A DNA stretch of 39,804 nucleotides, from the IMG/VR virus record IMGVR_UViG_3300010373_000025, positions 1 through 39,804 of that record. One strand, written 5' to 3'. This DNA is from a virus. Below, piece by piece: positions 2,930 to 24,024 of this stretch (position 1 is its first letter; each line of letters begins with the position of its first letter). The notes beneath the pieces were generated by a model. The model did not search any database. It saw only the letters and a program-made list of their open reading frames with translations, and was not told where the DNA came from. The position numbers were made by a program, and so were the translations under genes.

Positions 2930-3757
2930 ATGCCACGAGAATTAGAGCAACTTTCACAAAATGATCCGAGATGGAAAGATTTGCATTTAGGACTTTCTGA
3001 TTCGGTAACTTTGGGACAAGCCGGCTGTTTGGTAACTTCCTTCTCAGTACTTGCCTATTACTACAACCAACAAATAACTCCCGATCAAATGAACCAAATG
3101 TTAATCAATGCTAACTTGTTTGCTAATCAAGACTTAATTAGTAGTGATGACGATTTAGGAAAACTTTTTCCAGACATTAAATATCTGCAGACAAATCACT
3201 ATGAAAATGCCCCTGCAGACTTGTCATTACTAAAGGATCTAGTCAGTGATCTAACTAAGTGTGTGATTGTAGAAATTGACTTAGGAAACGGCCAAGTACA
3301 CTTTACCCCTGTTCTTGCCAGTGACGGGTCTAGTGTAACGATTATGAACGTGTGGAACGGGCAGGACGAAAGTTTAAATACAGTCTATGGTGATCCAGAA
3401 ACTAAAATACTTAAATACATTGTCTATCAAGGAACTGTGGCACAAGATCCAGCACCTGACACAGTAATGGAAATAGAGCAAAAAGACTACATAAAACTTA
3501 TGCAAAAGTCTGAGGAATTAGATAAAATAGGTCAAAAGTTAAACTTCACACAGCAAGATATAGATACCCTAGGCTTTTCAGATAAAGTCATACAAAAGTT
3601 TGAAGACCTGCAAAACGCACAAATTAGCACTCCTACCCCACCAGTCGCAGAGCCTGCCAGTGATGCAAATAGCTTGCCACAGCAACCTTTAACCCCATCC
3701 CAAACTACCCTATTGCAAAAGTTACTAGGTCTGATAGGATTTAAGTTAGGAGCATAA
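2930..3757 (+). CDS. C39-like cysteine peptidase, putative endolysin
   Basis: The 275-residue product begins with QNDPRW (10-15), the hallmark of C39-like papain-fold peptidases. It has the catalytic cysteine in GQAGCLVTS (Cys33), an EF-like helix pair that follows, a histidine in GQVHFTP (His124) and a downstream Asn/Asp in TIMNVWNG (about 139-143). These form the Cys-His-Asn/Asp triad of the family. A Pro/Ala linker and a short hydrophobic C-terminal helix (LLGLIGFKL) follow. There is no signal peptide. The next gene is a membrane protein, so the pair reads as a lysis cassette in which this enzyme cuts peptidoglycan cross-links. A role in virion maturation is the alternative. Confidence 0.72.
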   Translation: MPRELEQLSQNDPRWKDLHLGLSDSVTLGQAGCLVTSFSVLAYYYNQQITPDQMNQMLINANLFANQDLISSDDDLGKLFPDIKYLQTNHYENAPADLSLLKDLVSDLTKCVIVEIDLGNGQVHFTPVLASDGSSVTIMNVWNGQDESLNTVYGDPETKILKYIVYQGTVAQDPAPDTVMEIEQKDYIKLMQKSEELDKIGQKLNFTQQDIDTLGFSDKVIQKFEDLQNAQISTPTPPVAEPASDANSLPQQPLTPSQTTLLQKLLGLIGFKLGA

Positions 3758-3760
3758 CAA

Positions 3761-4102
3761 ATGGATGCAATTTTTTCTCCCTACATAACTATTGCCGCAA
3801 ACTTACTTGTTGGGTTTCTAATGAGTAAAGGAATTGTCGATAACAGTAGCAGACAGGCAGCATACCAACTTATCAACAATGCCATAGCTGCTCTTTTAAC
3901 TCTTATCTTTGGTATTGCTTCAATCTACTACGCACACGAAACACATAAAGTTAATGTTCTTGCTAAAACGAATAGCCAACTAATAACCCTTCCTAGCACC
4001 TCTTCAGTAATTATGACAGGCCAAAAATCTACAGCTACTCAATTACCCCAAACTTTAAATATACAGCAAACAGGACTGCCATCAACCCCAGTAAGTGCCT
4101 AA
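3761..4102 (+). CDS. Holin-like membrane protein
   Basis: AGGAG precedes ATG 3761, only 3 bases after the peptidase gene. The 113-residue product has two hydrophobic segments (about 8-25 and 40-60, the second ALLTLIFGIASIYY), a short connecting stretch, then a long polar Ser/Thr/Gln tail. Size, topology and pairing with a cell-wall peptidase fit a class II-type holin. No specific holin family is recognised. Confidence 0.6.
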   Translation: MDAIFSPYITIAANLLVGFLMSKGIVDNSSRQAAYQLINNAIAALLTLIFGIASIYYAHETHKVNVLAKTNSQLITLPSTSSVIMTGQKSTATQLPQTLNIQQTGLPSTPVSA

Positions 4103-4166
4103 GTTGAATACTTTTTGTGTACATCTTATTTTCTAGCTATGGGTTATTGAATAACTTTTTGAGGAC

Positions 4167-4195
4167 TTGACAAATGTTTTCACAGGTATTACGAT
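4167..4195 (+). promoter_or_regulatory. Consensus promoter for a putative small RNA
   Basis: TTGACA (4167-4172), 17-base spacer, TACGAT (4190-4195). No start codon with a plausible gene follows; instead the transcript from about 4202 would fold and end at the large hairpin at 4247-4316. Confidence 0.6.
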
Positions 4196-4201
4196 AAGTA
4201 T

Positions 4202-4321
4202 GCTAACGGGTAAGCCGTTGGGTGTCGAAAGACGAAAAACAAAAGGAACTCCATTTTCGAGGGTGCGTGCAGAGTCTCTTTTGTACGCTCGGCGCACACC
4301 CCTGAAAATTGGAGTTTTTTT
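4202..4321 (+). ncRNA. Putative structured small RNA with intrinsic terminator (unit A)
   Basis: Downstream of a consensus promoter the segment forms AACGG-gtaag-CCGTT (4205-4219), a GTC-GAAA-GAC tetraloop hairpin (4224-4233) and a long terminator arm. In that arm AACTCCA/TGGAGTT plus TTTTC/GAAAA (4247-4258 with 4304-4316) is extended by GGGTG/CACCC, then a run of T from 4315. The arm tip is GC-rich against an AT-rich background. The unit is about 120 nt. No family is recognised; it could be a trans-acting RNA or a leader of the genes from 4367. Confidence 0.55.
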
Positions 4322-4366
4322 ATGCAAATAACATCATGTATTAGGAAACCTAGAAATTGGATCTTC

Positions 4367-4483
4367 ATGAGTTCCGAAGAGAAGCGTAAATGGCAAGAAG
4401 ATACAAATAAGGAACTTGCAAATGACCACTCCGTAGAAGATTTTATTATGTTTGTAAAAGAAAAAGGAGGTGATACAAAATGA
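4367..4483 (+). CDS. 38-residue small charged protein
   Basis: The frame is open from ATG 4322 (53 residues), but that codon sits directly on the T-run of the terminator, so ATG 4367 is preferred. The product is rich in Glu, Lys and Asp (SSEEKRKWQEDTNKELAN) with a helical C-terminus. It overlaps the next gene by ATGA. Unknown function. Confidence 0.45.
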   Translation: MSSEEKRKWQEDTNKELANDHSVEDFIMFVKEKGGDTK

Positions 4484-4626
4484 CAAAGACAATTGATTAT
4501 ATAGTTCGTGAAAAGCGAGTTTCCACAAAAGGTTTTATATTGGGGTTGACCGATATGGCAATACAAACCCTTTTGATGATGGCAGCCTTTCTCATGTTGA
4601 CAGGCTTTCTATACTTGATACATTAA
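4480..4626 (+). CDS. 48-residue single-pass membrane protein
   Basis: AAAGGAGGTGATAC gives a strong Shine-Dalgarno before ATG 4480, which overlaps the previous stop. The N-terminus is basic and polar (REKRVSTKG) and the C-terminal 25 residues form one transmembrane helix (TLLMMAAFLMLTGFLYLI). It is one of several tiny membrane proteins in this early-side cluster. Unknown function. Confidence 0.6.
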   Translation: MTKTIDYIVREKRVSTKGFILGLTDMAIQTLLMMAAFLMLTGFLYLIH

Positions 4627-4633
4627 GGTAAAT

Positions 4634-4726
4634 ATGTTTGACACAGTATTGCTCGCCTATATAGCGGTTTTGGTTACAATTCTTACTCTGGTAAGAGTAA
4701 GGGAATGGATTGAGAAAAGTTTATGA
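4634..4726 (+). CDS. 30-residue membrane peptide
   Basis: ATG 4634 follows AAGGT with short spacing and the stop overlaps the next start as ATGA. The product is one hydrophobic helix (LLAYIAVLVTILTLV) with a basic C-terminus (RVREWIEKSL), giving a likely N-out, C-in orientation. Unknown function. Confidence 0.5.
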   Translation: MFDTVLLAYIAVLVTILTLVRVREWIEKSL

Positions 4727-4914
4727 AAATAAAAGTTGTTACTAGAGATTGGATGCCTAAAAATGAGATTTGGTTTACAAATAATGACGTTCCTATAGAT
4801 ATATTCGACCAGACTATTGTGGAGAAAAATATTAAAGCTGGATTAATAAAGAAGGTAAAATTTATAACTAAATTCAAAAAGAGAAGATTTGGAAAATTAA
4901 AAGGTATTAAATAG
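4723..4914 (+). CDS. 63-residue basic hypothetical protein
   Basis: It starts in an ATGA overlap with the membrane peptide, with GAGAAAAG upstream. The product ends in a strongly basic tail (KFKKRRFGKLKG) after an alternating beta-like region, suggesting nucleic-acid or membrane-surface binding. Not recognised. Confidence 0.6.
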   Translation: MKIKVVTRDWMPKNEIWFTNNDVPIDIFDQTIVEKNIKAGLIKKVKFITKFKKRRFGKLKGIK

Positions 4915-5028
4915 CATAAATCCCCTTACTTTGAACGAGAAGGGGATTTATGCTTAGCAATCACAGATACAAATCTTTATTTCGAAACTAGCTCCGGTAA
5001 TACGGTTTACGGTTCCGGTCTGTAATTG
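4905..5028 (-). ncRNA. Putative minus-strand small RNA (unit B)
   Basis: A consensus promoter reads leftward and predicts a start near 5028. The RNA begins with AATTACAGA, which pairs with TCTGTGATT about 55 bases later (plus-strand 5019-5027 with 4959-4967, one G-U). Enclosed is a CCGG-bounded arm with GTAA/TTAC inside. The RNA then runs into the 15-bp hairpin at 4913-4954. No start codon with a credible reading frame lies within it. It is antisense to nothing annotated except the 3' end of the basic protein gene. Confidence 0.55.
4913..4954. terminator. 15-bp perfect hairpin, probable bidirectional terminator
   Basis: AGCATAAATCCCCTT (4913-4927) pairs perfectly with 4940-4954 around a 12-base loop. 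It directly follows the stop of the plus-strand gene and also ends minus-strand unit B. Neither side has a long T-run right after the stem, so efficiency is uncertain. Confidence 0.6.
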
Positions 5029-5034
5029 ATATAG

Positions 5035-5063
5035 ATAGTATCACAAAGAGGCTAGAATGTCAA
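5035..5063 (-). promoter_or_regulatory. Consensus minus-strand promoter (unit B)
   Basis: On the minus strand: TTGACA (5063-5058), 17-base spacer ending TGA, TACTAT (5040-5035). This combines a perfect -35 with an extended -10. Confidence 0.68.
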
Positions 5064-5111
5064 TATTTATTACTCATTGTTAAGAATTTAACATGACACA
5101 GCAGTCGAATT

Positions 5112-5450
5112 ATGAATTTAGGAGAAATATTACATAAAGAAAAAATTGAATTACTCCATTTTTGGGAAAGTTTTGAAGATGGTGAATCTACTATGGAAGA
5201 ACGACTTGCTGCTTTGAAATATTTAGCTGGAATTGTTTATTTTCATAGAAAAAAAAGTCTTAAACGACTTAGAAAACATTTTAATAAAAACTATAAAAAT
5301 ATGTTTAATCTTACATGTTTCGTTTGTGGTGAAAAATGCCAACATCGTCATCATATTATTCCTTTAGTTAATGGAGGTATTAATAGTAAGTTAAACCGAG
5401 TTCCCCTATGTCGAAACTGTCATATTAGTATCCATCCGTGGATGCAATGA
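5112..5450 (+). CDS. HNH endonuclease
   Basis: The 112-residue product has a helical, basic N-terminus (RKKSLKRLRKHF) and a C-terminal HNH domain. Zinc pair CFVCG is at about 73-77, RHHIIPLVNGG carries the HH core (about 83-93), and LCRNCH (about 102-107) gives the second zinc pair. The N-terminal extension is longer than in the minus-strand HNH gene, so the two are not close duplicates. Such small HNH proteins are commonly free-standing homing nucleases. It sits inside the small-RNA island. Confidence 0.85.
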   Translation: MNLGEILHKEKIELLHFWESFEDGESTMEERLAALKYLAGIVYFHRKKSLKRLRKHFNKNYKNMFNLTCFVCGEKCQHRHHIIPLVNGGINSKLNRVPLCRNCHISIHPWMQ

Positions 5451-5678
5451 TAGTTTGAGGTTCAGGGGAGCAGACCACCCGCCAGTCAAAAGATTTCGGC
5501 AATGCTGCACTATGACCGACTGACCGACGATGACGTTTTTGTAAAGAACTTGAGGACTACAAGTAACAACAAGAGTCCTGGGAGCTAGAGCATCATCAGA
5601 GGGAGGGAGAGAATAGGAGGGTAGACTAGGGGTAGGGGTTTCCACATATATAGAAATGTGGTATTTTTGGGTGGTAAT
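5451..5678 (+). other. GC-rich, structured intergenic region
   Basis: About 230 bases without a credible gene, distinctly richer in GC than its surroundings. It holds an AGGACT/AGTCCT stem (5552-5578), a G-run tract (about 5600-5640) with five runs of three or more G that could form a quadruplex, and a CCACAT/ATGTGG hairpin (5642-5661) followed by TATTTTT, terminator-like on the plus strand. No promoter is evident. It may be a further structured RNA or part of an origin. Confidence 0.4.
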
Positions 5679-5687
5679 TGATATAAT
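5679..5687 (+). promoter_or_regulatory. Perfect extended -10 promoter (unit C)
   Basis: TGATATAAT is TG-n-TATAAT, the strongest form of an extended -10 element, so no -35 is needed. It directs transcription into unit C. Confidence 0.65.
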
Positions 5688-5693
5688 ATTCGT

Positions 5694-5795
5694 ACTCTCC
5701 CTGGTTGAGGTAAAACCGATTACTGGAGGACTGTCTTAAATCTATATGTTAAATGTAGTGTAAAGGCCTTGAATAAAATCGAGGCCTTTTTTTTG
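5694..5795 (+). ncRNA. Putative ~100-nt small RNA with classic terminator (unit C)
   Basis: Starting about 7 bases after a perfect extended -10, the RNA has a 5' arm in which CTCC/GGAG (5697-5700 with 5725-5728) encloses GGTT/AACC (5703-5706 with 5714-5717). It ends at an 11-bp stem (5762-5772 with 5779-5789) with a six-base loop and eight T residues. No reading frame longer than a few codons is present. This is the clearest promoter-RNA-terminator unit of the island. Confidence 0.65.
5762..5794 (+). terminator. Intrinsic terminator of unit C
   Basis: Stem AAAGGCCTTGA paired with TCGAGGCCTTT (one G-U), loop ATAAAA, then T8. A textbook Rho-independent terminator. Confidence 0.85.
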
Positions 5796-5802
5796 TTTTT
5801 CG

Positions 5803-5832
5803 TTGCAAAATATGCTACATTGCACATATAAG
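5803..5832 (+). promoter_or_regulatory. Promoter of unit D with overlapping inverted repeat
   Basis: TTGCAA (5803-5808), 18-base spacer, TATAAG (5827-5832). The inverted repeat GCACAT-n7-ATGTGC (5822-5840) covers the -10 and start region and could be an operator. A second TATAAT at 5891-5896 has no -35. Confidence 0.45.
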
Positions 5833-5838
5833 TGATGT

Positions 5839-5986
5839 GCTAGAACTTCTCACTCTAGTGTCTTAGACCTTATAAAACGCCTTGAGAAAGTATAATTTTT
5901 AAATTTGGATAAATTCTAACAAACCATTTTGGTTTTGTTGGGCAGATGGGGTAGGTATCTAGTCGGTATCTACCCCTTTCTATTTT
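5839..5986 (+). ncRNA. Putative small RNA with terminator (unit D)
   Basis: The segment contains CTAGA/TCTAG and AACAAACC/GGTTTTGTT hairpins. It ends with a 12-bp stem, GGGGTAG/CTACCCC (5948-5954 with 5970-5976) extended inward by five further pairs, followed by TTTCTATTTT. No gene is encoded. The start is less certain than in unit C because two candidate -10 boxes exist (5827 and 5891). Confidence 0.45.
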
Positions 5987-6053
5987 CGGCAAACTTTACA
6001 GATTTTTTACACTTCTCTTACATTACTAGTCTTGAGCAATACAGTTTTCCCTA

Positions 6054-6089: not shown

Positions 6090-6275
6090 ATGACAGACGC
6101 GATATACATTAAAAGAAAGAAGTTAGCAGAATTACTTTCTGTTACACCAAGAACAATTCAAAGATGGGAAGAAAAAGGGTTGCCAGTAATTAGAATAAAC
6201 GGTGCAGCACCTATGTATGACTTTACACAAGTTAAAAAATGGATAGAAGAAAATAATACGGAGGAGCAAGCATGA
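6090..6275 (+). CDS. Helix-turn-helix DNA-binding protein, excisionase/MerR-like
   Basis: The 61-residue product starts at ATG 6090, chosen from the promoter spacing; ATG 6081 lies in the -10. Residues 10-45 form a winged HTH: KKLAELLSVTPRTIQRWEE followed by GLPVIRING and a short MYDFTQVKKWI helix. This is the HTH_17/excisionase arrangement (AlpA, Xis, small terminase Nu1 relatives). It is first in the early operon that leads to the recombinase, so regulation of early transcription is plausible. No integrase is present, so excisionase function is unlikely. Confidence 0.75.
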   Translation: MTDAIYIKRKKLAELLSVTPRTIQRWEEKGLPVIRINGAAPMYDFTQVKKWIEENNTEEQA

Positions 6276-6350: not shown

Positions 6351-6494
6351 ATGTACGAATGCGATATTTGCCAATTAACAACAGAAAAGCTTTACAACGT
6401 CAATGACGAAGCACTTTGTAGCGATTGTTTTAATGAGGCAGTAAGTCAAGCAGAATACTATTTTGAAATGCAACGAGAGGAAGCAATTATATGA
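6351..6494 (+). CDS. 47-residue zinc-ribbon-like protein
   Basis: Two cysteine pairs, CDIC (4-7) and CSDC (23-26), are spaced for one zinc site, followed by an acidic helix. Its stop overlaps the start of the ERF gene (ATGA), placing it in the recombination operon. Tiny zinc ribbons of this kind are common in early phage regions; the partner is unknown. Confidence 0.65.
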   Translation: MYECDICQLTTEKLYNVNDEALCSDCFNEAVSQAEYYFEMQREEAII

Positions 6495-7330
6495 AACCAA
6501 AAGATACACAAATAATAAAAGCAAAAGCAACAGAGATAACCCCTATTCAAGACGAGGCAACGGCACTGATTAGCCAAGCAATCAATAAAGGTGTTGATGT
6601 TGACACAATGGAAAGATTACTCGCAATGCGTCGAGAGCTAAAAGCTGAAAAAGCAAAAGAAGCATATGACCAAGCAATGGCAAACTTTCAAAAAGCTATG
6701 CCAACAATTCAGAAAAAGACACAAGGGTATAACTATAAATATGCTGATCTAACTACTATTGTTGAACAGGTCAAAGATATTTTATCTTTAAATGGCTTTT
6801 CCTATACATTTGATACTGAGGAAGAACAAAATAGAGTGGTTATTTCCTGCAAGGTAAAACATACAGCAGGACATATGGAAGTAAGCAAAGCATTTATTAC
6901 GAAAGAAAGTACAACAAAAATGAACGCTTCACAACAATCTGGTGCAGCAATGACATACGGTAAAAGATATGCGTTTGTTAATGCCTTTGGCATACTTACA
7001 GGAGATGAGGATACCGATGCAGCGACTCCTAAGACAGTTACGACACAAAAACCTTCCACAACGCAACCTAGTAAGCCACAGGAGCCTTTAGGAATTACCC
7101 AAGAACAAAAAACACAAGTCATATTGTTACTTAATAAAAAGGGCAAAACGATGGATGGTTTATCTAATGCTATCAAAGTAGGTTTTAACAAAGTGTTACT
7201 CAAAGACTTAACAGCAAGTGATGCAAATAGACTTATTAATAAGTTAAGTAGCTTACCAGACAAGGAAGAAGAAGTAAAAGACGATGAGTCAGAGCAAATT
7301 GCAGACGATGTTGCAGAAGGGTTGAAATAA
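6491..7330 (+). CDS. erf: ERF-family single-strand annealing recombinase
   Basis: The 279-residue protein carries the ERF superfamily core: a helical N-terminus (AYDQAMANFQKAMP, about 57-70), YNYKYADLTTIV (about 78-89), and the signature SQQSGAAMTYGKRYAF leading to LTGDEDTDA (about 146-178). The last third is a Pro/Thr linker and a small lysine-rich C-terminal domain with an acidic tail (DDESEQIADDVAEG). Family members anneal complementary single strands in phage recombination and repair. No accompanying exonuclease or SSB is recognised next to it, although the neighbours are small zinc proteins and a 124-residue unknown. Confidence 0.92.
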   Translation: MKPKDTQIIKAKATEITPIQDEATALISQAINKGVDVDTMERLLAMRRELKAEKAKEAYDQAMANFQKAMPTIQKKTQGYNYKYADLTTIVEQVKDILSLNGFSYTFDTEEEQNRVVISCKVKHTAGHMEVSKAFITKESTTKMNASQQSGAAMTYGKRYAFVNAFGILTGDEDTDAATPKTVTTQKPSTTQPSKPQEPLGITQEQKTQVILLLNKKGKTMDGLSNAIKVGFNKVLLKDLTASDANRLINKLSSLPDKEEEVKDDESEQIADDVAEGLK

Positions 7331-12339: not shown

Positions 12340-12546
12340 ATGATTTTACAAATACTTAAAAAGAAAGACGACCCATTAGCATTACGCATCTCCATTGGTG
12401 GTAATCAAAAGCAAGCGTATTTGGTATATCGTGGGGATTTGGCAAAGATAAAATTATTACTGGATGAAGTAAATGAGAGATTGAAACAATTACCTAGTAG
12501 CGAAGAGCCAGGAATATCGCCAGATGATGGTAAGAAGTTCGCATGA
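12340..12546 (+). CDS. 68-residue hypothetical protein
   Basis: AGGAGAAG precedes ATG 12340; an upstream extension to 12280 lies in the previous gene. The pattern LRISIGGNQKQAYLVYRGD then KIKLLLDEVNERLK is a beta-strand pair plus helix. The stop overlaps an upstream in-frame ATG of the Acb2/Tad1-like gene, indicating co-expression. Unknown; a DNA-binding fold is possible. Confidence 0.65.
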   Translation: MILQILKKKDDPLALRISIGGNQKQAYLVYRGDLAKIKLLLDEVNERLKQLPSSEEPGISPDDGKKFA

Positions 12547-12560
12547 GAGGGGGTGAAAAC

Positions 12561-12800
12561 ATGGAAGATAAAACAAATACAAAATTAGATCCACAAGCAG
12601 CTTTGCATGAGGAACGAAAAAATATTGATGCTCGTATTCAAGCAGTGAATGCTTTGAAAACACAGGATCAATTTAAAACAGCAGGTAGAGAAATCGCACT
12701 TGCTTATACACATCTTCAAGAAGCAAAGATGTGGTTAGGTCAAGCACTTGGAATGATAGGAAGTGAATTGCCAGCACAATTTGCTGATAAAGCTGAGTAG
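12561..12800 (+). CDS. Acb2/Tad1-like cyclic-nucleotide sponge (copy 1)
   Basis: The 79-residue product is two helices, ERKNIDARIQAVNAL and then AGREIALAYTHLQEAKMWL with GQALG. The R-x3-A-x2-L-x2-A-x-M-W-L pattern is that of the Acb2/Tad1 hairpin domain. Acb2 and Tad1 are phage proteins that bind immune signals (cyclic oligonucleotides of CBASS, gcADPR of Thoeris) and so block abortive infection. GAGGGGGTG before ATG 12561 sets the start. A second copy lies at 21734. Family assignment is from the motif only. Confidence 0.7.
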   Translation: MEDKTNTKLDPQAALHEERKNIDARIQAVNALKTQDQFKTAGREIALAYTHLQEAKMWLGQALGMIGSELPAQFADKAE

Positions 12801-16394: not shown

Positions 16395-16811
16395 ATGGAT
16401 GCATCACAAGAGCCACAAGTTGTAAGCGAAGTTAAAGAACAACAAAATAACAACGAAACGCCTCCTGCAAAACCACTTACTGGGTTTCAATTACACCCTG
16501 AAAATATAAATAGAAACGGTGCGCCAAAACGATCTTGGACTTGGAAAGATTTAATTGAGGAGGCAGCTGAGGAAATGATGGAAGTAAAAGGTAAAGACGG
16601 TACTACTTCACGAAAAGCACTCAAATACTTAGTTGCACGTAAGTTATTAACTGCAGCCGCTGGTGGTAATGTAAATGCAGCGAGAGAACTTATGAATAGA
16701 ACTGATGGTATGCCAACACAACCCGTAGAACATACAGGGGAGGTTACATTAAACGTCAATGAAATGTTAGAAAAAGTATATGGAGAGACTAAACCAGACA
16801 GCACTACTTAA
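16395..16811 (+). CDS. DUF5681-like protein, candidate small terminase
   Basis: The 138-residue product has a disordered head, then INRNGAPKRSWTWKDLIEEA (about 38-57), a helical core and AAGGNVNAARELMNRTDGMPTQPVEH (about 88-113). This G-x-P-K ... GN-x-x-A ... NR-x-DG-x-P-x-Q layout is that of DUF5681-type proteins found directly before phage large-terminase genes. It overlaps TerL by 32 bases. It is the stronger of two small-terminase candidates here. Confidence 0.65.
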   Translation: MDASQEPQVVSEVKEQQNNNETPPAKPLTGFQLHPENINRNGAPKRSWTWKDLIEEAAEEMMEVKGKDGTTSRKALKYLVARKLLTAAAGGNVNAARELMNRTDGMPTQPVEHTGEVTLNVNEMLEKVYGETKPDSTT

Positions 16812-18309
16812 TTGCCTCTCAGCAGCAAAACACGCTGGCGTTCCTCGCGATCAAGCAGAAGCGTTTGTATCTCATGGATATATACCGTTAGGATGGCAGT
16901 GGGAATTTCACGCTGTAGCAAGACAAGCAGATTTACCCAATGGCCCTGTTGATATTGGTCTTGGCGGTGCAAGAGGCCCTGGTAAATCTCATGCTGTACT
17001 ATCACAAGCTGCACTCGATGATTGCCAGCGAATACCTAATCTTAAAGGCTTATTTTTACGTCAAACAGGCATAGCTGCTCAAGAATCGTTTGATGATTTA
17101 GTAGATAAAGTAGTACGTGGGAGGGTGCAGTATAAAAAAACTGGATCAGTATTATCATTTCCCAATGGCTCACGTATATTGCTAGGAGGCTTTCAGTATG
17201 AGAAAGATATAGATAAGTATATTGGTATTGAGTATGACTTTATTATTGTTGAAGAGTTAAACCAGATTACAGGAGATAAATACTTAAAACTTCGTGGTTC
17301 ACTTCGTACTTCAAAACCTAACTGGCGTCCAAGAATGTACACCTCATTTAATCCAGGGGGTATAGGTCACCAGTTTGTTAAAGAACGTTACATCTTGCCA
17401 CATATGGAAGATAAACAAAAAGAAACACGCTTTGTACCATCTACCTATCGTGAAAACCCATATCTTAACAAAGAGTACATAGGATACCTTGAAAGTTTAA
17501 CTGGTGAATTAGGTCGTGCATGGCGTGAAGGTGACTGGGATATTTTCGCTGGACAAGCATTTCCTGAGTTTAGACAAAAAACCCATGCCATTAAATCTAT
17601 TAAACCGTCAAGTAACTTTGAACATGGATTATCTATTGACTGGGGATACACTGATAAAAAACCATGTGCTTTCTCTGCTTATTTACATGCACTGATAAAG
17701 ATGAAATTACCAGATGGTCAAAACTTTAATAGGGTTATTACCTATATGGAATGGTCTGGAAATTTAAAAACGCCTAGAGAATGGGCTAAGATTATCTATG
17801 AAGATTGTTTAAAAATGGGTATCAAACTAACAAAAGGTATTGCAGACTCCTCTATTTTCAATCCTTCCAGTGACTATGGAAAAGATATTGCAGCTATCTT
17901 TATGGAAGAGTGGCGTAAGTTAAATGCTGGCGACTCATGGCTAACACTTGGTAAAGGAACAAAAGACAGAAAAGGTCGTGTTGCAACAGCTCATGATTGG
18001 CTATCAATTGCCCCAGATGGTTTACCGTATTGGATGATAACACAAAACTGTTATCAATTATTAACTACCCTACCTATTCTACAAGTAGATGAGCATAACT
18101 TTGAGGACGTAGACACAACAGGGCTAGATGATCCATACGACAGTGCCACGTACTACTTATATGGTGGCGTGAAGTTTATAGGTATCAAAGCTGGTGCATT
18201 TACCTATGGTCAAGGTGCAACGCCTGTTAAGGTGCAGTTTAACAAAGATGGTCAACAGATACCGCTTGATGTAAACGAGTGGAACAAAATGTACCCAAAG
18301 AACACTTGA
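16780..18309 (+). CDS. terL: Terminase large subunit
   Basis: The 509-residue protein shows the packaging ATPase and nuclease. Walker A is GGARGPGKS (62-70), Walker B is DFIIVEE (153-159), and the coupling-type motif is YTSFNPGG (187-194). The RNaseH-fold nuclease starts with LSIDWGY (catalytic Asp287), has further acidic residues around KGIADSSIF, and ends in a third acidic patch (about DVDTTGLDDPYD). Full length for the family. ATG 16780 overlaps the previous gene. The stop lies inside the -35 of the next promoter. Confidence 0.95.
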   Translation: MERLNQTALLNCLSAAKHAGVPRDQAEAFVSHGYIPLGWQWEFHAVARQADLPNGPVDIGLGGARGPGKSHAVLSQAALDDCQRIPNLKGLFLRQTGIAAQESFDDLVDKVVRGRVQYKKTGSVLSFPNGSRILLGGFQYEKDIDKYIGIEYDFIIVEELNQITGDKYLKLRGSLRTSKPNWRPRMYTSFNPGGIGHQFVKERYILPHMEDKQKETRFVPSTYRENPYLNKEYIGYLESLTGELGRAWREGDWDIFAGQAFPEFRQKTHAIKSIKPSSNFEHGLSIDWGYTDKKPCAFSAYLHALIKMKLPDGQNFNRVITYMEWSGNLKTPREWAKIIYEDCLKMGIKLTKGIADSSIFNPSSDYGKDIAAIFMEEWRKLNAGDSWLTLGKGTKDRKGRVATAHDWLSIAPDGLPYWMITQNCYQLLTTLPILQVDEHNFEDVDTTGLDDPYDSATYYLYGGVKFIGIKAGAFTYGQGATPVKVQFNKDGQQIPLDVNEWNKMYPKNT

Positions 18310-22747: not shown

Positions 22748-22777
22748 TTGACAAGTATTAGTATTTTTATACATACT
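22748..22777 (+). promoter_or_regulatory. Promoter of major capsid gene
   Basis: TTGACA (22748-22753), 18-base spacer, CATACT (22772-22777). It gives a leader of roughly 70 nt, the exception to the leaderless pattern in the head genes. Confidence 0.6.
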
Positions 22778-22806
22778 ATCAATAGATAAAGCAAAAAGGA
22801 CTATTT

Positions 22807-22848
22807 ATGTCCGCTAACTCGTTAAGAGTTCGCGGATTTTTTATTTAA
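22807..22848 (+). promoter_or_regulatory. Leader peptide with attenuator-like hairpin before capsid gene
   Basis: AAAAAGGAC precedes a 13-codon frame (ATG 22807 to TAA 22846; MSANSLRVRGFFI). Within it CCGCTAACTC (22811-22820) pairs with GAGTTCGCGG (22826-22835) with one mismatch, followed by T6. Ribosome movement over the frame would open the hairpin, a translation-dependent attenuation layout. The capsid ATG at 22855 is in the same frame, 6 bases after this stop. Confidence 0.5.
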
Positions 22849-22854
22849 AAAAAT

Positions 22855-24024
22855 ATGTTACTAAAACAATCATTTAATACACAACCAAGTTTTCTTAGTA
22901 AATCTCTTTCTTTTGCAGACGAACTTCAACTTAAAGCACCAAATAAAACAGCTAACGTAACACCAGATGGATTGTCATATGGTACTAGAGTTTCTAACTT
23001 TAACTACCAAATGGAGTTGGCTACAATCGTTGACTCTATTCTTAACTCCACAACTCTTGCATCACATATTCTTTACAACGCTAAAAACTTCAATAGATAT
23101 ACACTTCTCAAAACAATCAAAGCAATAAGACGAACACAGTTCCAAGAAGTATCAGGACTTGAGCCATTGAACGGTGCAGCAGAAAACGTCACCATTCAAA
23201 TGGCATTTAATCGTGCATTATTCTCAATGCCTACAGTTAAGATTTTGTCTGAAGCATTTGCTAGACAGTATGATCAGGGAATTGACTACGATCAGTTTGA
23301 ATATGAAGACGTACTAGACGAAACGCTTTATGGTTTGACAAATGTATTCTTTACAGGTGGTACAAACTTTGTTGGTCTTAATCAATTGACTGATGATGGT
23401 ACAACTTATGATGATATTGGAGGAGCTAGTCGAGCTACCTATTCTGTACTTAAAGGTAAAGTACAAGATATGAGTGGTACAGGATCACTTTCAAAGATTG
23501 CAACAATGTATAGTGCTATTTCTGATACAGGACCTAATGAAACCCCTTCGCTTATTGCTACAACTTTTGATGTATTTGATCTTATCGAATCTTTGTATCT
23601 TCCAACAGTACGACATGAATACAAAACACTTCCAGTTGGAGGACGATACCCAACAGCACATGCAGCAGATGGTATGGGAAATGGATTCCAAACTATGGAC
23701 TGGAGAGGTATTCCAATTTTGAGAGATAAAGCTATTGCAGCAGGGTATGGTTATATGCTTAACTTAAATTACCTTGGATATTATGGCGATCAAAAAGTAC
23801 CACCTGCATTTAGTAAATTCTTGACACCTGTTAAACTTGGTAAATCAAGTGTCAAAGAAGGACAGTCAACAATGCGACCATCTGATTATGCAGGGTTCTT
23901 CTTCCAAGAAGAGCAAATGATGCCAAATAATGGTGGTACAATCGGACGATTCTGGATTTCAGGACAGTTGACGTCATTCCAACCAAGACGTCAAGGAAGG
24001 TGGATTAACTTTAACGGAGTTTAA
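22855..24024 (+). CDS. Major capsid protein (HK97-fold)
   Basis: The 389-residue product follows scaffold. Features consistent with the HK97 coat fold are an extended N-arm, the VSNFNYQMELATIVDSIL region, a spine-helix-like TLLKTIKAIRRTQF, a P-domain segment, EDVLDETLYGLTNVFFTGGT, a late loop rich in Gly/Pro, and WISGQLTSFQPRRQGRW near the C-terminus. The start has no Shine-Dalgarno of its own; it could be reinitiated after the leader frame. ATG 22855 is the only reasonable start before the conserved region. Confidence 0.8.
   Translation: MLLKQSFNTQPSFLSKSLSFADELQLKAPNKTANVTPDGLSYGTRVSNFNYQMELATIVDSILNSTTLASHILYNAKNFNRYTLLKTIKAIRRTQFQEVSGLEPLNGAAENVTIQMAFNRALFSMPTVKILSEAFARQYDQGIDYDQFEYEDVLDETLYGLTNVFFTGGTNFVGLNQLTDDGTTYDDIGGASRATYSVLKGKVQDMSGTGSLSKIATMYSAISDTGPNETPSLIATTFDVFDLIESLYLPTVRHEYKTLPVGGRYPTAHAADGMGNGFQTMDWRGIPILRDKAIAAGYGYMLNLNYLGYYGDQKVPPAFSKFLTPVKLGKSSVKEGQSTMRPSDYAGFFFQEEQMMPNNGGTIGRFWISGQLTSFQPRRQGRWINFNGV

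Follow-up and report, generated by a model that had tools for sequence, protein, structure and literature searches.

A probable noncoding regulatory spacer of four short transcription units in a phage genome, with a candidate attenuator-like leader

An island between the lysis-type and early genes

We sought to identify what occupies the gap of about 2 kb (island, 4103-6053) that separates the early operon from the lysis-type genes (2930-3757, 3761-4102) in a 39.8-kb phage record from IMG/VR, the whole of which (39,804 nucleotides) we call the window. The early operon to the right of the island includes an HTH protein gene near 6090 and an Erf-like annealing protein gene at 6491-7330. A sequence-only reading had placed here four stand-alone small RNAs, each with a promoter, a folded segment and a terminator, and had suggested a riboregulatory hub, decoys or guide-like RNAs. 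The best explanation of our results is that the island is a noncoding regulatory spacer built of four short transcription units. It is real but differently built, comprising a candidate attenuator-like leader (unit A), a minus-strand structured RNA kept in position (unit B) and two short noncoding units (C and D), with no structured GC-rich block. Because the portal protein resembles those of a TM7 phage and of Manatee Spring phage MW202566 (22-27% identity), a Patescibacteria host would be plausible. The units and the small genes among them are as follows.

4167..4195, + strand: unit A promoter, TTGACA-17-TACGAT, with a perfect TTGACA; counterparts in relatives G006 and G007 recognised by eye
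about 4202..4321, + strand: unit A leader RNA, 120 nt, with a 5' hairpin, a tail strand, a long terminator hairpin and U7; fold z -5.15
4235..4242, + strand: unit A tail strand ACAAAAGG, complementary to the loop of the hairpin that begins at the next base
4322..4483, + strand: 53-aa ORF with its ATG directly after the U7 of unit A; no family
4480..4626, + strand: 48-aa small membrane-protein-like gene, 44-47% identity in G006
4634..4726, + strand: 30-aa small membrane-protein-like gene, 61% identity in G006
5063-5035, - strand: unit B promoter, TTGACA-17-TACTAT, with a perfect TTGACA and a TG before the -10
about 5028-4905, - strand: unit B RNA with strong hairpins, fold z -5.71; same position and strand in G006 and G007
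5679..5687, + strand: unit C extended -10 promoter TGATATAAT, rank 84 of 79,584 positions
5694..5795, + strand: unit C RNA, terminator at 5762-5789 followed by a long T run; fold z -3.47
5811..5821, + strand: unit D extended -10 promoter TATGCTACATT, rank 11 of 79,584 positions, fitting the phage's own consensus
5828..5986, + strand: unit D RNA, terminator at 5948-5976; fold z -3.13

Extended -10 boxes (TATGCTAyAnT, TGATATACT) end 6-12 nt before many start codons at 16377-38479 of the window, a pattern that suggests gene-by-gene promoters and near-leaderless mRNAs for most genes. Since most genes carry such a box at this distance, we built a phage-specific -10 model, trained on the phage's own gene-proximal promoters, and scored the genome with it (79,584 positions). 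Under this model the unit B promoter gains from its TG and -35, and that of unit A depends on its -35. In 12 kb of sequence, raw counts of motifs were in modest excess over shuffles, with 47 promoter motifs against 37.8 (sd 6.9) and 11 terminators against 7.1 (sd 2.9); being barely above shuffles, they leave the support for the units to the phage-specific promoter model, the fold z-scores and synteny. Three of the four claimed promoter-terminator units, A, C and D, proved genuine, whereas B pairs a strong promoter with a weak U-tract after its last hairpin (TATTTAAT). The folded segments all beat shuffles (z -3.1 to -5.7), and the absence of credible reading frames held up: unit C has none of at least 10 aa, and B and D have none with an ATG start. 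We take B, C and D to be, most probably, short transcripts without coding function. Their pairing to phage translation start regions was no better than that of shuffles (p 0.92, 0.77 and 0.45), and shuffles did as well for pairing among A-D.

The island recurs by position, with its sequence not conserved, in two IMG/VR contigs that hold both the lysis and the early modules: G006 (L009; endolysin 57% and Erf 61% identical to the window) and G007 (L008; Erf 56%). Both run from a holin-like gene through unit A and tiny membrane-type genes to unit B on the minus strand. A and B have counterparts in both contigs, those of B folding better than shuffles (z -4.13 in G006, -3.00 in G007), and C has one in G006 only, a unit with a strong promoter and a terminator (z -3.44). 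The C slot of G007 (L008 8872-9261) instead holds five tRNAs by Rfam, four by ARAGORN, with another promoter-terminator unit (z -3.04) after them. The clustering of short units that had drawn attention to the island is thus present, and A, B and C (or the tRNA array for C) keep their order in two relatives, though A does not stand alone. Because of this kept order, a noncoding-RNA slot at this genome position is plausible. The island is absent from G005, L011, L012, L010 and L043-L047; a search of phage records returned no DNA similarity to it, and a search of cellular genomes found no relatives.

An Rfam search, proposed earlier as a check, was run and matched the island to no family. With Rfam 15 at gathering score there were 0 matches in the window and nothing near threshold at 4103-6053, and relaxed thresholds gave nothing credible. 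The loci of 12 relatives likewise gave no match, the only hits elsewhere being the tRNAs in L008. The tRNA search of the window (ARAGORN, Rfam) returned 0, and a tRNA or decayed tRNA in C or D was rejected for want of any signal. A guide RNA of an RNA-guided nuclease was also considered. The only linked candidate effector, the HNH gene at 5112-5450, encodes a 112-aa protein with an ordinary HNH domain, and G006 and G007 have no such gene in the interval from B to C, so that the idea of guide-like RNAs working with a phage protein was dropped. The GC-rich block at 5451-5678, described as structured, does not fold beyond chance (z -0.30 and +1.02 for its halves). Five G-runs on the + strand at 5598-5640 (GGGAGGGAGAGAATAGGAGGGTAGACTAGGGGTAGGGG) form a possible G-quadruplex directly upstream of unit C. 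Elsewhere in the window, an 85-aa protein at 12543-12800 has an Acb2/Tad1 hairpin domain (PF24729, over the Pfam cut-off) and may be an anti-defence sponge protein.

Unit A and its tail-loop complementarity

Unit A runs from a promoter through a 120-nt RNA to a terminator that meets a start codon without spacer, and is therefore better read as a leader than as a stand-alone small RNA. Its terminator hairpin (-35 kcal/mol) is followed by U7 at 4315-4321 and by the ATG at 4322. As in the lambda pR'-tR' arrangement, the terminator lies within about 200 nt of the promoter and genes follow. The same T7-ATG after a strong hairpin is found in the window, G006, G007, G030 and G013, with T7-GTG in G020, and the leader folds better than shuffles in each of the first three (z -5.15, -4.69 and -2.24). 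In G030 and G013 the element stands first in a run of small and early genes. The tiny membrane proteins were not found among the proteins of 22 relatives.

In six phages, the tail strand, which adjoins the terminator stem at its 5' base, is complementary to the apical loop of that same terminator. The tail/loop pairs are ACAAAAGG/TCTTTTGT, GTAGATGTACATA/TATGTGCATCTAC, GTAAAGC/GCTTTAC, CTTGAACA/TGTTCAAG, TGTCT/AGACA and GAATAATA/TGTTATTC, the helix reaching 8 bp in the window (one G-U), 13 in G006 (one G-U) and 7 in G007. The window pairing alone is modestly significant (p 0.007-0.04), and the window, G006 and G007 combined without a position rule give p 4e-4. We then turned to 22 further relatives, which were scanned for long hairpins followed by T runs, with pairing not used in the search. 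Three of the matches abut a start codon (G030, G013 and G020, the best three scan matches, singled out afterwards), and 3/3 carry tail-loop complementarity, the gap being 0-1 nt. Under the gap rule the six members give a Fisher p of 3e-9, where the p-values of the first three are partly post hoc because the 0-gap rule was noticed on them; the native pairing comes out first among 720 permutations of tails and loops. When the abutting rule was left out, a pseudoknot scan with a 60-nt gap was too noisy. G030 and G013 have alike flanks, yet both strands of the helix have changed. Tail and loop covary across the six members.

A pseudoknot within one molecule, formed alongside the full stem, has an unlikely geometry in most members, since the linker spans 0-1 nt, the stem is about 20 bp long and the other side offers 4-6 nt. 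Since this linker and stem make coexistence in one molecule unlikely in most members, we infer two alternative folds: the tail-loop helix and the full stem are probably alternatives, or else the helix forms between molecules. In predictions for the RNA still lacking its 3' arm, the tail-loop helix gives the minimum-energy structure for G006, G007 and G020 but not for the window, G030 and G013. Once complete, the terminator far exceeds the tail-loop helix in stability.

In the mechanism that we propose, unit A would be a cis-acting leader. A sigma70-type promoter would make the 120-nt RNA, which would end at the intrinsic terminator abutting the start of the small-gene operon, with the two conserved tiny membrane-protein genes after it. 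In the terminator fold the RNA would be short and the genes off; in the tail-loop fold the terminator would be delayed, allowing read-through and turning the genes on. That unit A is such an attenuator-like leader, switching between two folds, we hold with moderate confidence, termination in vivo and competition between the folds being what we infer from the sequence. The U7-ATG junction and the covarying pairing fit a leader of this kind, and the suggested role of unit A as a guide, decoy or hub was set aside. Among the early proteins scanned, no antiterminator family was recognised; many proteins are without any family.

Leaders of the capsid genes

Outside the island, the major capsid gene of the window has a leader with the following features.

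22748..22777, + strand: major capsid leader promoter, TTGACA-18-CATACT
22798..22842, + strand: leader element, a mini-hairpin GGAC/GTCC that has the 5' arm in common with the terminator at 22809-22837, then a T run
22855..24024, + strand: major capsid protein gene (PHROG major head protein, E 7.6e-12)

In relatives, a promoter, about 20-30 nt, a hairpin, T6-9 and an ATG stand ahead of portal and capsid genes in the same order as in unit A. We fixed the prediction in writing and thereafter fetched 33 new capsid loci, with 266 ORFs as controls. An intrinsic terminator lies just upstream of the major capsid gene in 24/33 new relatives versus 35/266 control ORFs (p 2e-12), and a promoter together with a terminator in 18/33 versus 13/266 (p 3e-12). 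The conserved arrangement is located upstream of the capsid gene in L053-L086 and the window. The mini-hairpin has 3-5 bp and an A/U-rich loop, and its 3' strand doubles as the base of the terminator's 5' arm. Since the sequences are related and the set was picked for clean alignment, the statistics of the capsid leader are not strict probabilities: with leaders swapped among the 33 sites, complementarity scored 160 instead of 318 (sd 22; highest value 265.5 in 20,000 permutations; p<=5e-5), and in a 17-sequence alignment 85% of mini-hairpin cells were paired versus 67% shuffled, with a covariation score of 0.487 versus 0.187 shuffled (0 of 500; slid controls <=0.25). The terminator constrains the shared arm too, yet it cannot yield covariation with the leader strand. 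Here, as in the tail-loop pairing of unit A, a covariation-backed alternative helix shares nucleotides with a terminator. By inspection, units A, C and D have no mini-hairpin of the capsid type. A leader peptide was rejected, the ATG ORF in the window's capsid leader being absent from most relatives. Tandem terminators occur in the capsid leaders of G001, G003 and G009, and several relatives have leader-terminators before portal genes; the positions noted for the two kinds together are L041 at 549, 3303 and 3347, L038 at 10475 and 10428, and L035 at 8411 and 8466.

Alternative readings and known systems

If the hairpin were a stabiliser of the 5' UTR and a translation element, then the T run would be a U-rich ribosome-binding spacer and there would be no working terminator. 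The T7 gene 10 leader, with its 5' hairpin and a U/A-rich stretch before the major capsid gene, is the model for such a reading. The U7 directly before the ATG and an SD-like GGAG/AGGG in the 3' arm favour it, and as most other genes seem near-leaderless, the leaders of the capsid gene and unit A could mark high expression. However, a GC-rich stem followed by 6-9 T is a textbook intrinsic terminator, and the capsid hairpin, unlike that of T7, leads straight into a T run and has its 5' arm in common with a covarying mini-hairpin. The copies in tandem before the capsid gene of three relatives also argue against a stabiliser, and the tail-loop and leader-arm covariation would be left unexplained. 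We consider this reading unlikely.

Unit A could also be a stand-alone small RNA in which the tail of one molecule pairs with the loop of another, forming dimers or chains, with the ORFs downstream transcribed from other promoters. Pairing between molecules is not hindered by a 0-nt linker, the tail-loop complementarity covaries, and a second promoter-like site (TTGACA...TACATT, 4597-4624) lies inside the operon. The phi29 pRNA, likewise a phage RNA of about 120 nt with loop complementarity and a structure kept while its sequence drifts, offers a comparison. Identity with it was rejected, as the window phage packages with an ordinary large terminase (a classical type encoded at 16780-18309), and the RNA of unit A ends at a start codon. 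Against dimers more generally, the U7-ATG is kept in 5/6 members, with U7-GTG in the sixth, and a free RNA would need neither; no partner protein and no phi29-type packaging genes were found. We regard this reading as improbable. Least likely is that the units are ordinary leftovers, the spacer having gathered operon terminators and promoters that serve for insulation only: the spacer is gene-poor, the terminator of B is weak and B, C and D are without target signal, but the promoters stand upstream of the terminators, and the strong folding, the synteny in G006 and G007 and the covariation are unexpected from leftovers.

The attenuator-like reading of unit A has parallels in two further known systems. 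Like the lambda late leader (pR', 6S RNA, tR'), unit A has a strong promoter, a short RNA running to an intrinsic terminator and genes just downstream, and it lies near lysis genes. In contrast to Q-type control, no Q-like protein or qut site was recognised here and the terminator directly abuts the ATG; the covarying tail-loop pairing and the repetition of the design at several operons of related phages are further differences from lambda. Classical attenuators and the expression platforms of riboswitches also combine a terminator with an alternative helix drawing on part of the terminator hairpin. Here, however, the members have no aptamer or leader peptide in common and no Rfam match, and the alternative partner in unit A is the apical loop and not a stem arm.

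We tentatively propose that in this TM7-phage-related lineage promoter-proximal terminators govern the operons through two RNA switches that differ in structure and each show covariation: one of tail-loop type serving small or early operons (unit A), and one of mini-hairpin type serving the major capsid gene together with other structural operons. Neither switch would correspond to a described RNA family, and the two would belong to a single phage-wide programme of attenuation or antitermination. Searches of the open literature on attenuation at phage capsid genes, on leader elements of phages and on RNAs of Patescibacteria phages turned up no description of either element (subscription journals and preprints lay outside this scope), and two papers on phages of Patescibacteria make no mention of promoters, terminators or small RNAs (PMC10746230, PMC12911398). 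If the leaders do terminate and switch, then the lineage would use RNA structure, operon by operon, to time the expression of early and capsid genes, and two new RNA families would become available for annotating uncultured phages. Phages of this lineage have no cultured system; the elements are short, and any bacterial RNA polymerase would serve to test them in vitro. The leaders of a more distant relative, G010 (L036 and L037; 5360, 24331 and 35364), have AAAAGAACTTTC in common before the terminator, possibly a different switch sequence.
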